From a virus, in IMG/VR virus record IMGVR_UViG_3300037264_002924, positions 1 through 27,972 of that record: a DNA stretch of 27,972 bases; one strand, written 5' to 3'. Below, one piece after another: positions 20,586 to 25,334 of this stretch (the first letter of the stretch is position 1; every line of letters begins with the position of its first letter). The translations under genes were made by a program, and so were the position numbers. Under the pieces are notes generated by a model. It did not search any database. It saw only the letters and a list, made by a program, of their open reading frames with translations, and had not been told where the DNA came from.

Positions 20586-21017
20586 CTACGCCTTCTCCAG
20601 CTCGACACCCTGCGAGAGAAGCGACGGCATGTCGTAGCTGCTCGCGTTGATGATGTCGCCCTTGCGGAGCAGGGCACGGAACCCGCCTGAGGAGATCCAC
20701 TGCTCCTTGAGCACGCGGAGGTCTCCCGAGGTCGGCACCGGACCTGTACGTCCTCCGAGGTGCGGAGCAGGATCGACGAACGTCACTTCGGGAATCGACT
20801 CGACCTGCTGCGACGGAGCAACGTACTCGTCCTTCGCCATCACGTCGGTGAGTGTCTTGCCGTCCGGGAAGGCGCCGGGCTTGGAACGCCCCTGCGAGGT
20901 CCGAGGGAACAGCGGTACAGCCGGCACGGTCGGCTTGGAAGGCTCGACCTTCTCCTCGTCCCGATCGAACTCGAACTCGCTACTACTGCCAGTCCCCTTC
21001 TTTCGTGTCGTCCGCAT
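20586..21017 (-). CDS. Hypothetical protein after major capsid gene (143 aa)
   Basis: ATG 21017, with GGAGG 4 nt upstream of a short spacer, giving 143 aa. The first 50 residues are charged and low in complexity (RTTRKKGTGSSSEFEFDRDEEKVEPSKPTVPAVPLFP), probably unstructured. The remainder has a Pro-rich section (YVAPSQQVESIPEVTFVDPAPH) and ends in LKEQWISSGGFRALLRKGDIINASSYDMPSLLSQGVELEKA. It resembles linker proteins that follow capsid genes, and may be a head-decoration or connector factor. Not recognised as a family. It is separated from the capsid gene by the long hairpin at 21039-21096. Confidence 0.6.
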   Translation of the reverse strand: MRTTRKKGTGSSSEFEFDRDEEKVEPSKPTVPAVPLFPRTSQGRSKPGAFPDGKTLTDVMAKDEYVAPSQQVESIPEVTFVDPAPHLGGRTGPVPTSGDLRVLKEQWISSGGFRALLRKGDIINASSYDMPSLLSQGVELEKA

Positions 21018-21105: not shown

Positions 21106-22482
21106 TTACTCGCCGTGGATGACCACGACGGCTCGCTTGAAGCGGGCCGCATCGCCGGACGTGATATCGGACGGGATCGCGAAGTCACCCGACCACGACC
21201 ACGTCTGGCCGACCACCTGCTGGAGGCGGTCCATCGGCGCACGGAGGATGTAGCGGATGCGCTCGATCATCACGGCCAGGCCGTTGTTCACGATGTCGAA
21301 GGATCCGATCTTCCCCATGACGCCAGCCTCGGTGATGTACTTGGACTCATCGAGGTACTTCTCGTAGATCGTGCCCTGGCCCAGAACGATCGCGCGGTGG
21401 AGCGGGATGCCCGTCTCGTTCACCGTGTCGCCGCCGATGTCACGCGAGTACAGCGCCAGGCCGCCCGTGCTGACCGTCGCGCCGCTGTTCGCCAGCAGAG
21501 GGTTCTCCGCGTTGCGGTAGAACATCATCCCCAGCAGATGACCCAGCGCCGCCTCCCTGTAGTGGAGGTAGTCCGGCAGGCTCGTGTTGAGCCGCTGGAA
21601 GGCCGGGTCGGCGAAAATCTGGGCCTCGCTCGTGGGGTCCAGGTGGACGTGGTAGAAGCCGTCCGGGAAGGGCGGCACGTTCATCAGGCGCAGCCGAGCG
21701 ACCGCGCTGATGAGATCCTGGAGCGTCAGGATGTCCACGGCGGACACGTCGTCCACGTTGGTGCCGCCGCCCGAGTAGACGAGCGTCGAGCGGATGCTCG
21801 AACGGATCGACTCTCGGAGAGCGAGCGCCGCAATGGCCGCACCGTCCACCGTGATGATGCCGGGACCGTCTGGGTCGGTCACATCGTCGGGCGCGACCGC
21901 CGTGACGTTCCGGGTGCCGACCGTGGCGATGATCACGGAGAGCGAGTTGGTCGTGCTGACGGTCGTCGGCCGACCGTTGACCAGCACGAAGCGGAAGCCG
22001 TTGAGGGCCGCCACGTGGATGTTGTTTGTGGGCGCCGCGATGGCGACATCGTTGACCGTGTGGCCTCCGATGTACGCCTTGAACAGCGGGTCACGAGCGA
22101 GCTGGTTGAGCGACTGCCCGCCACCGAGGCCGAGCTGCTGCGAGTTCCGAAGGAACAGCGAGGCAGCCGCGACGGTGCTGGTCGGCATGTGGGTGTCGAT
22201 CGTGTCGCCGTACTGCTTGGCGGTCGCCTCCCACTGCTCGATGGCGACGGACTTCGGAGTCGGATCGACGCCCGCGACGAGCGGCGTCTTCGAGGGGGCG
22301 AGGAGCCCCGCACGGGTGAAGGTCTGGTTGTCGCCGAGGTTGACCGGCCACAACTCGGCCGCCGCCTCCGCGCGGAACAGGAGCTTCGGATAGAGCGCGT
22401 CGCGGAAGACGCGCTCCAGCGTGCGGTCCTGCACGAGGTTCTGGAGATTGAGGGGAATCCCGATCACGAGCGGGCCTGCCAT
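21106..22482 (-). CDS. Major capsid protein (458 aa)
   Basis: The ATG at 22482 has GGAGG 6 nt upstream and starts MAGPLVIGIPLNLQNLVQDRTLERVFRDALYPKLLFR. A GTG 21 codons upstream is open but lacks a good site. The region NQTFTRAGLLAPSKTPLVAGVDPTPKSVAIEQWEATAKQYGDTIDTHM (about 52-100) follows the pattern of HK97-fold capsid proteins of the N4-gp56 type, with P-L-x-x-G-V-x-P and a following 'x-x-A-x-x-Q-Y-G'. The central part is beta-rich with the usual A-domain alternation (NGFRFVLVNGRPTTVSTTNSLSVIIATVGT), and the end includes FYHVHLDPTSEAQIF and ...YRNAENPLLANSGATVSTGGLALYSRD. It is next to the connector genes. No separate protease or scaffold is in the window. Confidence 0.78.
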   Translation of the reverse strand: MAGPLVIGIPLNLQNLVQDRTLERVFRDALYPKLLFRAEAAAELWPVNLGDNQTFTRAGLLAPSKTPLVAGVDPTPKSVAIEQWEATAKQYGDTIDTHMPTSTVAAASLFLRNSQQLGLGGGQSLNQLARDPLFKAYIGGHTVNDVAIAAPTNNIHVAALNGFRFVLVNGRPTTVSTTNSLSVIIATVGTRNVTAVAPDDVTDPDGPGIITVDGAAIAALALRESIRSSIRSTLVYSGGGTNVDDVSAVDILTLQDLISAVARLRLMNVPPFPDGFYHVHLDPTSEAQIFADPAFQRLNTSLPDYLHYREAALGHLLGMMFYRNAENPLLANSGATVSTGGLALYSRDIGGDTVNETGIPLHRAIVLGQGTIYEKYLDESKYITEAGVMGKIGSFDIVNNGLAVMIERIRYILRAPMDRLQQVVGQTWSWSGDFAIPSDITSGDAARFKRAVVVIHGE

Positions 22483-22716
22483 CGGATGCCTCCGGGTTCG
22501 ACGTTCACGGCTTCGGTCTGCGGCGGGAGCGGCACCATGCCTCACCCTACAGTTGCCACATCCGTTCCGTCCCGTTCCCCGCGATCCGACCGTTGACCGC
22601 CGTCGTACACGTACTGCGGGTCCAGGGACTCTTCGGTTGCGAGCGTTACTCGCGCGTTCCGTTGAGCCTCTACAGAGTGGAGGTGTACGCCTACACCTCC
22701 GGGGCTGTCAACACCC
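22483..22716. promoter_or_regulatory. Leader region of the major capsid gene with promoter-like repeat
   Basis: 234 nt between the 46-aa ORF and the capsid gene. On the coding strand TTGACA occurs at 22711-22706 inside a stretch almost identical to the one before the 668-aa gene (GTGTAGGCGTAC is the other shared core). A 9-bp perfect hairpin, GGAGGTGTA-CGCC-TACACCTCC, lies at 22679-22700 and overlaps it. After this there is a leader of about 200 nt with no recognisable gene; the strong GGAGG of the capsid gene closes it. A tiny frame from ATG (MVPLPPQTE...) overlaps the capsid start and is not supported. A high-level late promoter in front of the capsid gene is plausible. Confidence 0.5.
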
Positions 22717-22857
22717 CTAGCCGTCGGTGGCGACCTGGAACCGGATCACGTTCTCGGTAGGTGCAGCGAGTTCGACCTTCGTCTCTAGGGGAGGAGCAGC
22801 CAGATCGGCGACGAGGATCTCTTCTGGCGAGGTGGGGTTGGGGTCCTGGGATTGCAT
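22717..22857 (-). CDS. Small 46-aa ORF, C-terminal paralog of the 129-aa protein
   Basis: ATG at 22857, 17 nt after the 668-aa stop, to TAG at 22717-22719. It encodes an acidic 46-aa peptide (MQSQDPNPTSPEEILVADLA ...) ending in ETKVELAAPTENVIRFQVATDG. This end resembles the end of the 129-aa protein (EQIEFAFESPDDTVVRFRVLKD): both have x-V/I-E-x-x-x-P-x-D/E-x-V-V/I-R-F-x-V. Both genes are followed by the same TTGACA element. It has no good Shine-Dalgarno and may depend on re-initiation after the 668-aa gene. It could also be the remnant of a second copy of the 129-aa gene. A function is not inferred. Confidence 0.5.
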   Translation of the reverse strand: MQSQDPNPTSPEEILVADLAAPPLETKVELAAPTENVIRFQVATDG

Positions 22858-22874
22858 TGGCGGGAGGAGGGTGT

Positions 22875-24881
22875 CTAGGCGAAGTTGAGCTGGCGGAAGA
22901 CTCGCGCGTCAGTCGTGGCTCCGACGAGCGGCGTGGCAGCGACGGCGACTGTGCTCCACAGGCCGGCAGCGCCGTCCGTCCGAACCTCCGGCGTGGCGCC
23001 GGTTCCGACGAGCCCGTTCGTGACTGCCCCGGCCACGAGTCCGAGGATCGCGAGCGCAGTCGAAGCCGCACCGATCGCGAGGCTCCCAGCCGCGCCGAAC
23101 AAGGCGCTGCGCAACTGAAGCTCGCCAGCCGTCGCGAACGCGGTGCCGGCGAGGGCGGCGTTGACCCTGGTGACAACAAGAGCCAGCGTCGTGTCGGTGA
23201 TCAAGAACGTGACGGTCACATCGCCCGCCCCGTCCTTGTTGATGATCAGGGTCTCGCCGCCGAGGAAGCCGGTCGGGTACGTGCCTCCCCTCCCGATGAT
23301 CATCGTGCGTCCGGTCTCCTTGCCGGCCTGCACGGAAGCCTTGTTCTGCGCGTCGACTGCCGTGAGCAGAGAGCCGACCGATCTCACGAACGCGGTACCC
23401 GCCGCGTCCGCCGCACCGTCCACCGTGCCGGGCAGTCGGATAGCCGACCCGTCGTTGTTGACCCGCATGCAGCCGCCCGCCGGGGCTGCCGATCCGCCAC
23501 CCAACGCGGCGGCGAACAGCACATTCCCCATGTTGGGGATCTTGCCGCCCTGGAAGCACTGGAGAGCGGGAACGGCGGCCCCCTGCCCGCTGAACTGGAG
23601 CGGGAGGACAGCCGGGCCGCCGAACACTGGGGACTGCGAGTCGCCCGTGAGGACGACCACCCCGGTGTAGAAATGCCCCGAGAAGATGCTGAGCGTGCTC
23701 TTGCGGTCCGCGTTGATCGCCTGGCCGAGCGCCGTCGAGACGTACGACTCCGCGAAGACCGACGCCCCGGCAAGGCGCATCCCGAAGCCGCCCGCGCCGG
23801 TTGGCTTGCTCGCGAAGCACTTAGTCGCGAAGGAGACGAGCGTCAGTGCTCCGAGCACCGGGTCCGCGACTACCCCAACGTCGCCGCCAGACGCCACCGC
23901 CCCGCCCTTGACGTACAGGCCGCCCTGCACGCCCCGGAACAGGCACCCGAAGATCCCGAGCATCCCGCCCTGCGACCGGACTGAGCACGGGTTGTCGCCC
24001 ACCACATCGTTGTTGATCTCCAAGTCGCGGAGGATCACGCACGACTTCAGCAGGTTGTGTCGGACCGAGGGGACGAACTCGCTCGCCCACGGCATGATGA
24101 TGTCGAGCGCGACGCTGCGCCCCGCCGCCGGGCTCGCGAGGATCGCGCTCGGCGTCAGGACCTCATAGACCCAGCCGGGCGCTGCCTTCGGGGCGCCCAC
24201 GTTGTCGAACGGCTCGGGCGGCTCGACGAGCGTGGTGGTGTTGTCCTTGATGGTGATCCACCGCTCGGTCGCGGCCCGGTTGAGCGGGTCGTAGGTGTGC
24301 AGCTCGAATCCGCGCAGCGCGCCCGCCACGAACGGGGCGGCCGTGTCGACGATCCCGTAGTTGTTCGTCCCGACCGTCGCGATCCCGGTGTGGACGACCG
24401 TCTTCGCCGTAGGACCACTTAGGATGATGCGGCCCTTCGGCGGACGAGGGACGTTGAGGATCAAGTTCTCGGGGGTATGGGCACCAGCGAGCCAGTTCAC
24501 GACAATGTCGTTCGTCAGGTTCAACTCCAGCCACGACGCCGCGCGGTCCAGACCTCGCTGACCGGTGCGGAATGGTCGAGACACAGTTCCATCGTTCGCA
24601 TCGTTGCCGTTGACCGGATCGATGTAGACTCCAACGGAACCATTGGCAGCCGCTTGGAGAGGTTGGCTGATTCCGCCCAGGAGCGAAAGAATCGCAGGGA
24701 ACAATGGCTGCGACTGAGCATAGGCAGTCGCCCTGGCTTCCATCTCCGGGGTCGCCAGCACAAGCGGCGCGCTGTCCGAGAGCATCCCCGTGATCGGGTC
24801 GTTGGAATCCGAAAGGACGGTGCCAGCCCGGTAGAGGGTCGTCCCGTACTGGAAGTCATTGAGCATGATGTAGCGAGCCAT
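22875..24881 (-). CDS. Tail-spike or fibre-like protein with beta-helix features (668 aa)
   Basis: ATG at 24881 with AGGAGAAACA as ribosome binding site. The start MARYIMLNDFQYGTTLYRAGTVL is a common head-fibre or decoration start. From about 84, VGVYIDPVNGNDANDGTVSRPFRTGQRGLDRA is the classic entry into right-handed beta-helix/pectate-lyase-like domains ('D-x-x-G-N-D-x-N-D-G-T-x-x-x-P-F-x-T'). A long repetitive beta section rich in Gly, Val and Ala follows (residues about 100-530). Residues about 539-623 form a second domain (ETLIINKDGAGDVTVTFLITDTTLALVVTRVN ...) also present in the sheath. Glycan-degrading residues cannot be placed. It may be a spike, a fibre or a head-attached adhesin; position before the capsid gene rather than with the baseplate favours a head fibre or a secondary adhesin. 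Confidence 0.6.
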   Translation of the reverse strand: MARYIMLNDFQYGTTLYRAGTVLSDSNDPITGMLSDSAPLVLATPEMEARATAYAQSQPLFPAILSLLGGISQPLQAAANGSVGVYIDPVNGNDANDGTVSRPFRTGQRGLDRAASWLELNLTNDIVVNWLAGAHTPENLILNVPRPPKGRIILSGPTAKTVVHTGIATVGTNNYGIVDTAAPFVAGALRGFELHTYDPLNRAATERWITIKDNTTTLVEPPEPFDNVGAPKAAPGWVYEVLTPSAILASPAAGRSVALDIIMPWASEFVPSVRHNLLKSCVILRDLEINNDVVGDNPCSVRSQGGMLGIFGCLFRGVQGGLYVKGGAVASGGDVGVVADPVLGALTLVSFATKCFASKPTGAGGFGMRLAGASVFAESYVSTALGQAINADRKSTLSIFSGHFYTGVVVLTGDSQSPVFGGPAVLPLQFSGQGAAVPALQCFQGGKIPNMGNVLFAAALGGGSAAPAGGCMRVNNDGSAIRLPGTVDGAADAAGTAFVRSVGSLLTAVDAQNKASVQAGKETGRTMIIGRGGTYPTGFLGGETLIINKDGAGDVTVTFLITDTTLALVVTRVNAALAGTAFATAGELQLRSALFGAAGSLAIGAASTALAILGLVAGAVTNGLVGTGATPEVRTDGAAGLWSTVAVAATPLVGATTDARVFRQLNFA

Positions 24882-24944
24882 TGTTTCTCCTGTTGTGCGA
24901 GTGGTCGAAACGAGTACGCCTACACATCCGAACCTGTCAACACC
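24882..24944 (-). promoter_or_regulatory. Promoter-like element before the 668-aa gene
   Basis: On the coding strand, GGGTGTTGACAG with a spacer and GTGTAGGCGTAC starts at the stop codon of the 129-aa gene (24947) and ends about 33 nt before the ATG at 24881. TTGACA is a perfect -35 hexamer; no convincing -10 (TATAAT) follows 17 nt on, where GTACTC stands. The nearly identical stretch before the capsid gene argues for function, perhaps recognised by a sigma factor with a different -10 preference or a phage activator. Confidence 0.5.
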
Positions 24945-25334
24945 CTAGTCCTTCAGCACCCTGAAACGCACCACGGTGTCGTCGGGGGACTCGAAGGCAA
25001 ATTCGATTTGCTCCTGGGTAGTCACAGCGAACACGGTTTCTGACGGAGCCACGACTTCCTGCTCGGTCGGACCAGGAGCCTCAGATGCGAGCACGCTGTC
25101 TGGAGCCAGAGCCGTGAGACCCAACTGCGTGTCGCTGGCGGCAACTGCGGCGAAGCTGGTCAGGTCCCTGGGAGCCCTGAGCCGGAGGGTTGCCCCGATC
25201 GAGATCGGAGGGAAGACCGGGACGACGAACAGCTCTTGGTTCTCCGGCCCGCTGACGATGACGACCGCAGGCGGGACGAACGTGTGGGTCGTGGAGATCC
25301 AGAGGTTCTCCCCGTCTGCCCCGATCACTCGCAT
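24945..25334 (-). CDS. Hypothetical virion-region protein (129 aa)
   Basis: The frame is open further upstream, but ATG 25334 overlaps the previous stop as TGATG and begins a clean protein: MRVIGADGENLWISTTHTFVPPAVVIVSGPENQELFVVPVFPPISI. It is beta-rich and acidic, with TLRLRAPRDLTSFAAV in the middle and a Ser/Pro/Glu-rich part before the end (FESPDDTVVRFRVLKD). No family recognised. It is translationally coupled to the 222-aa gene, so the two probably act together in the virion. Its C-terminal peptide recurs in the 46-aa ORF. Confidence 0.6.
   Translation of the reverse strand: MRVIGADGENLWISTTHTFVPPAVVIVSGPENQELFVVPVFPPISIGATLRLRAPRDLTSFAAVAASDTQLGLTALAPDSVLASEAPGPTEQEVVAPSETVFAVTTQEQIEFAFESPDDTVVRFRVLKD

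Follow-up and report, generated by a model that had tools for sequence, protein, structure and literature searches.

Genetic organization of the locus

The minus strand of an uncultured viral genome fragment of 27,972 bases, referred to here as the window, includes two nearly identical elements, one located in front of a gene encoding a 668-amino acid protein and the other in front of the major capsid protein gene. What these elements do at these two sites is the question considered here. The fragment is everything known of this virus of bacteria, and a nucleotide search with the window identified no relative among named phages. From 27.9 kb downwards, the minus strand includes several genes with no assignment, a 129-aa ORF, the first copy of the element, the 668-aa gene, a 46-aa ORF, the second copy, a long leader and the capsid gene, with the tail sheath found further along in the same order, at 16-18 kb (Table 1).

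The gene that follows the second copy had been labelled a capsid gene in the original prediction, and this label is correct: its product matches capsid proteins, the closer relatives (43-57% identity) being from uncultured contigs and more distant ones from Streptomyces phage Kromp and two phages of Komagataeibacter. The product of the 668-aa gene is probably a structural protein, as judged from sequence comparisons. It has no PHROG or Pfam match and, when used as bait, found no match in viral contigs; a 40-residue segment (residues 535-574) shows 50-55% identity to parts of proteins from four related phages. The matching protein is encoded 2-4 kb upstream of the capsid gene in three of them (L015, L008, and L081) and on its downstream side in the fourth (L017).

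Table 1. Features of the element-capsid locus (window coordinates).
Feature	Coordinates	Strand	Remarks
129-aa ORF	24945..25334	-	Ends at copy 1
Element copy 1	24914..24944	-	GGTGTTGACAGGTTCGGATGTGTAGGCGTAC; before the 668-aa gene
-35 of copy 1	24935..24940	-	TTGACA, otherwise present in the window only in copy 2
Proposed -10 of copy 1	24911..24916	-	TACTCG; 18-bp spacer; register from L152
668-aa gene	22875..24881	-	AGGAGA ahead of ATG; residues 535-574 match proteins of related phages
46-aa ORF	22717..22857	-	Paralogous to the C-terminal end of the 129-aa ORF; stops at copy 2
Element copy 2	22685..22715	-	GGTGTTGACAGCCCCGGAGGTGTAGGCGTAC; before the capsid gene
-35 of copy 2	22706..22711	-	TTGACA, otherwise present in the window only in copy 1
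Proposed -10 of copy 2	22682..22687	-	TACACC; 18-bp spacer; register from L152
Inverted repeat	22679..22700	-	Perfect (9 bp) in copy 2, where it reads GGAGGTGTA-GGCG-TACACCTCC; copy 1 has an imperfect version
Conserved covarying leader hairpin	22585..22613	-	Core 22586-22606, ACGACGGCGGTCAACGGTCGG; between copy 2 and the capsid gene
Major capsid protein gene	21106..22482	-	ATG at 22482, CGGAGG ahead of ATG

The duplicated element

The element is 31 nt long and has the structure GGTGTTGACAG-N3-CGGA-N-GTGTAGGCGTAC. Its two copies have the same length and spacing and are identical at 28 of 32 bases; no other direct 32-mer pair within the minus strand matches as well (the maximum in 20 dinucleotide shuffles was 25). 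Both begin at the TAG of the preceding ORF, with one extra G in copy 2. The near-identical pair and its start at the stop codon of the preceding ORF had both been described correctly; the proposed layout with a short variable stretch was confirmed as a pattern, except that CGGA and the spacing are fixed and the variation is limited to the three N positions and one further base.

Exact matches to GTGTAGGCGTAC occur twice in the window, and allowing up to two mismatches raises the number to 8 (0.99 expected), two of which are the reverse-strand shadow of copy 2. The hexamer TTGACA is found on either strand of the 28 kb only within the two copies, while 6.9 occurrences would be expected; both sites are intergenic and each points into the gene behind it. 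As had been noted, no third copy is present in the 27,972 bases of the window, and a search of viral contigs for the exact composite motif gave no match.

The second-best 32-mer pair of the minus strand (27/32) is a coding repeat. This 39-nt repeat, 82% identical between coordinates 20892-20930 and 22138-22176, is shared by the capsid gene, as TVAAASLFLRNSQ, and the gene next to it, as TVPAVPLFPRTSQ, and has the same reading in both.

Proposed promoter features of the two copies

Each copy is likely to be a promoter of the sigma70 class, with a perfect -35, a conserved spacer (CGGA-N-GTGTAGGCG), a weak -10, and an orientation towards structural genes. The identification of TTGACA as a perfect -35 holds for both copies. 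The accompanying statement that the -10 is absent holds in that no TTGACA-N16-19-TAnnnT sequence exists in the window, so that neither copy has a consensus -10, but it is too strong, as TACTCG and TACACC stand where an unrelated phage, L152, has its -10. These hexamers keep the T at position 1 and the A at position 2 and lack the T at position 6. For this reason the two copies can be said to work like a sigma70 promoter while not being counted as members of the consensus class.

The L152 site was the single contig match in a scan of viral contigs for TGTTGACAGN{7,9}GTGTAGGCG, for which roughly one to six chance matches are expected (an estimate, the size of the collection in bases not being given); since one match does not exceed the chance expectation, the spacer common to L152 and the window may be a coincidence. 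The weight of this match is in its position and not in the shared spacer. The site, TTGACA-GTTATCCGGTGTAGGCG-TAATTT, combines a perfect -35, a 17-bp spacer and a good -10, is the only TTGACA-N16-18-TAnnnT of the 55.8-kb contig, lies directly after a terminator-like GC-rich hairpin with a T run, and precedes a gene with no assignment and a capsid gene. Transferred to the window, this register would place the -10 on TACTCG (24916-24911) and TACACC (22687-22682).

A host-type RNA polymerase would recognize TTGACA plus the weak -10 at both copies, and we infer from this arrangement both that transcription would start here and the position of the start. Copy 1 would fire about 25 nt before the 668-aa gene, so that its message would have a leader of this length, with AGGAGA as an ordinary ribosome site. 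Copy 2 would fire about 190 nt before the capsid gene, and the resulting leader of about 190 nt would include a conserved hairpin, described below, and the sequence CGGAGG before the ATG.

Promoter-like sites in related phages

A set of 62 distinct loci, each with a related capsid gene, was scanned over the region 20-300 nt before the capsid match. The sequence TTG-N3-17-TAnnnT was present in 17 of them, compared with 0.5 in shuffles (maximum 3); this pattern was picked after some of the sites had been seen, the sharp preference for 17 bp not having been built in. The 17-bp spacer stands out, as 18 bp gives 4 loci, a weak signal, and 15, 16, 19, and 20 bp give 0-2; the strict pattern is missing from 45 loci. 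Examples are TTGCAG-17-TATTCT (L002), TTGCGC-17-TAGGAT (L005), TTGCTT-17-TATTCT (L100), and TTGACG-17-TAGGGT (L102). In L002 and several others the -35 lies at most about 10 nt from the preceding stop codon, as it does in the window, whose copies share their position with these promoter-like sites. The spacer sequence of the element is absent from the related phages, having been seen only in L152, and no repeated promoters of the kind found in the window were detected inside the relatives.

Of the functions that could be assigned to the element, a promoter before two structural genes is thus the best supported, by the sites of the relatives and by L152, although the -10 departs from the consensus. 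Like the sigma70-class promoters of phage structural operons, the element has a TTGACA -35 and a location directly after the preceding stop codon and before a capsid gene; it differs from them in a -10 without the last T and a spacer sequence that is conserved between copies. If TACTCG and TACACC are the -10, its spacer would be 18 bp, compared with about 17 bp (16-18 bp) in that class.

This conserved spacer, or its inverted repeat, may bind a regulator. It could even be that the element is primarily the site of a phage regulator of late genes, formed by the inverted repeat GTGTA-GGCG-TACAC and its neighbours, where TTGACA would not be enough alone and an activator or a repressor would offset or block the weak -10. 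The 9-bp repeat is perfect in copy 2 and 4 of the 5 inner arm positions are kept in copy 1, and the conserved spacer and the weak -10 also speak for such a site. Activator-dependent middle or late promoters are known in phages, namely those of the T4 MotA, Mu C, and P2 Ogr types, and they resemble the element in that a conserved extra box accompanies a core promoter that is imperfect. In these promoters, however, the -35 is weak or replaced, as is usual for activator-dependent promoters, whereas here it is perfect; moreover, the inverted repeat is poor in copy 1, and in L152 this spacer box is paired with a good -10, a combination for which no activator should be needed. A primary role as a regulator site therefore seems unlikely.

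Age of the duplication

The 46-aa ORF and the C-terminal region of the 129-aa ORF are paralogous over 45-48 residues (local alignment score 55 versus 27.7 ± 5.3, a value reached by none of 2000 shuffles), and the two ORFs are reciprocal best matches within the window. When aligned by codons, the DNA of this paralogous module is identical at 66 of 135 positions (49%), compared with 28 of 32 (88%) for the element; the chance of observing at least 28 of 32 at a 49% rate is 6e-6. Because of this difference the element looks constrained. Both copies would go back to an old duplication in which a gene end was copied along with the promoter, and selection would have kept the promoters alike while the gene ends diverged.

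Gene conversion limited to the element would also explain 88% versus 49% identity, with no obvious reason for it to stop at the element borders. That the similarity reflects a recent duplication or a gene-conversion patch with no function is quite improbable. Short patches do get copied in this genome, as indicated by the 39-nt repeat mentioned above, but the paralogous codons that flank the element are just 49% identical, the two sites lie between genes, at the place of a promoter, and carry the only TTGACA sequences of the window, and the relatives have promoter-like sites at the same place.

An action of the element as RNA, as a hairpin located where the upstream message ends and protecting or processing transcripts, is the least probable reading. 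Copy 2 does form a stable fold (-15.9 kcal/mol, z -3.6), but copy 1 does no better than shuffles (z 0.0 for a 66-nt stretch and -1.1 for the core), and TTGACA, although part of the conserved sequence, is not part of the hairpin. The element also has no T run, and a terminator reading was rejected on this ground.

The hairpin in the capsid gene leader

The leader that would follow copy 2 includes a putative hairpin, for which the comparative support is stronger than for the promoter. It is located 124 nt before the capsid start codon, where the stretch 22586-22612 reads ACGTGTACGACGGCGGTCAACGGTCGG, and has the form ACGCG-N-A, a 4-bp stem, and a GRCGGTNAACR loop. The motif ACGACGGCGG-N3-ACNGTCGG, found by comparison of leaders, matched 54 stretches in viral contigs, some of them from contigs already in the set of relatives; a capsid-protein ORF is found at most 3 kb downstream in 40 of them and is missing in 14, 5 of which have fewer than 700 bases downstream. 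Dozens of uncultured phages have this hairpin ahead of a capsid or scaffold gene (in addition to the window, L002, L005, L008, L013, L086, L088, L096, L100, L120, L132, L139, and others). In some phages it lies 70-124 nt before the capsid gene, in others the distance is about 920-1120 nt, which puts it ahead of the preceding, scaffold-type gene; both positions are occupied in L086, L088, and L100, while the capsid gene of L132 is preceded by two copies. When the motif was made slightly stricter and searched for in cellular genomes, 257 billion bases gave only four matches.

Relatives fetched by the capsid protein alone have the alternative stems CGTC/GACG, CGGC/GCCG, CAGC/GCTG, CGCC/GGCG, and CACC/GGTG. 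In a set of 29 sequences, partly chosen for pairing, all 116 of 116 cells were paired, 14 double changes were counted versus 2.4 in shuffles and at most 1 in slid controls, and one stem pair takes all four Watson-Crick forms. Hairpins selected by the loop only have on average 2.67 of 4 pairs, compared with 1.83 ± 0.12. Compensatory stem changes across species, by which structured RNAs are recognized, are therefore present. A covariance model that includes the window itself detected its hairpin with 41.2 bits (E 3e-8) and found no second one before the 668-aa gene. A generic best-score promoter scan before the hairpins gave a mean of 7.14 versus 6.82, a difference too weak for single loci.

No family in Rfam release 15 was matched at the gathering threshold by the hairpin or its loci, named phages gave leader hairpin matches at chance level only (E about 1), and the open-access literature yielded no description. 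The hairpin can be considered a candidate new RNA family, absent from Rfam, which shares with the structured leaders of that collection the presence of a short hairpin in a 5' leader. Translational operators are known in phages, such as the coat operator of RNA phages and the leader of T4 gene 32, and the capsid leader hairpin resembles them in being a small hairpin close to the start of a gene whose product is made in large amounts; its loop and stem are different, however, and it lies 60-130 nt ahead of the start codon and not over it. Its loop GGCGGT presumably resembles the ops element of RfaH. Most likely the hairpin would act on the capsid message itself, through translation, stability, or antitermination.

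We consider it reasonably likely that a two-part module governs the capsid gene here and in many uncultured relatives, consisting of a promoter at the stop codon of the preceding ORF and an undescribed hairpin by which a factor of the phage or the host would recognize capsid and scaffold messages, for example as a translational operator for the coat protein or as an antitermination signal. Phage control of a high dose of capsid protein is understood in few models, and a promoter kept across an old duplication together with a covarying capsid/scaffold hairpin would define a testable control point. The hairpin also provides a sequence handle to find capsid operons in metagenomes.

In L041, L054, L057, and L063 the motif is found inside the first codons of scaffold-like genes, and in L057 a start codon is closely flanked by two copies, one on either side; conservation of the hairpin is therefore not bound to one coding or non-coding context. 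A second small hairpin, CGACRG-N5-CYGTCG, is located about 10-18 nt before the conserved one in L025, L029, L039, L066, L020, and L024.
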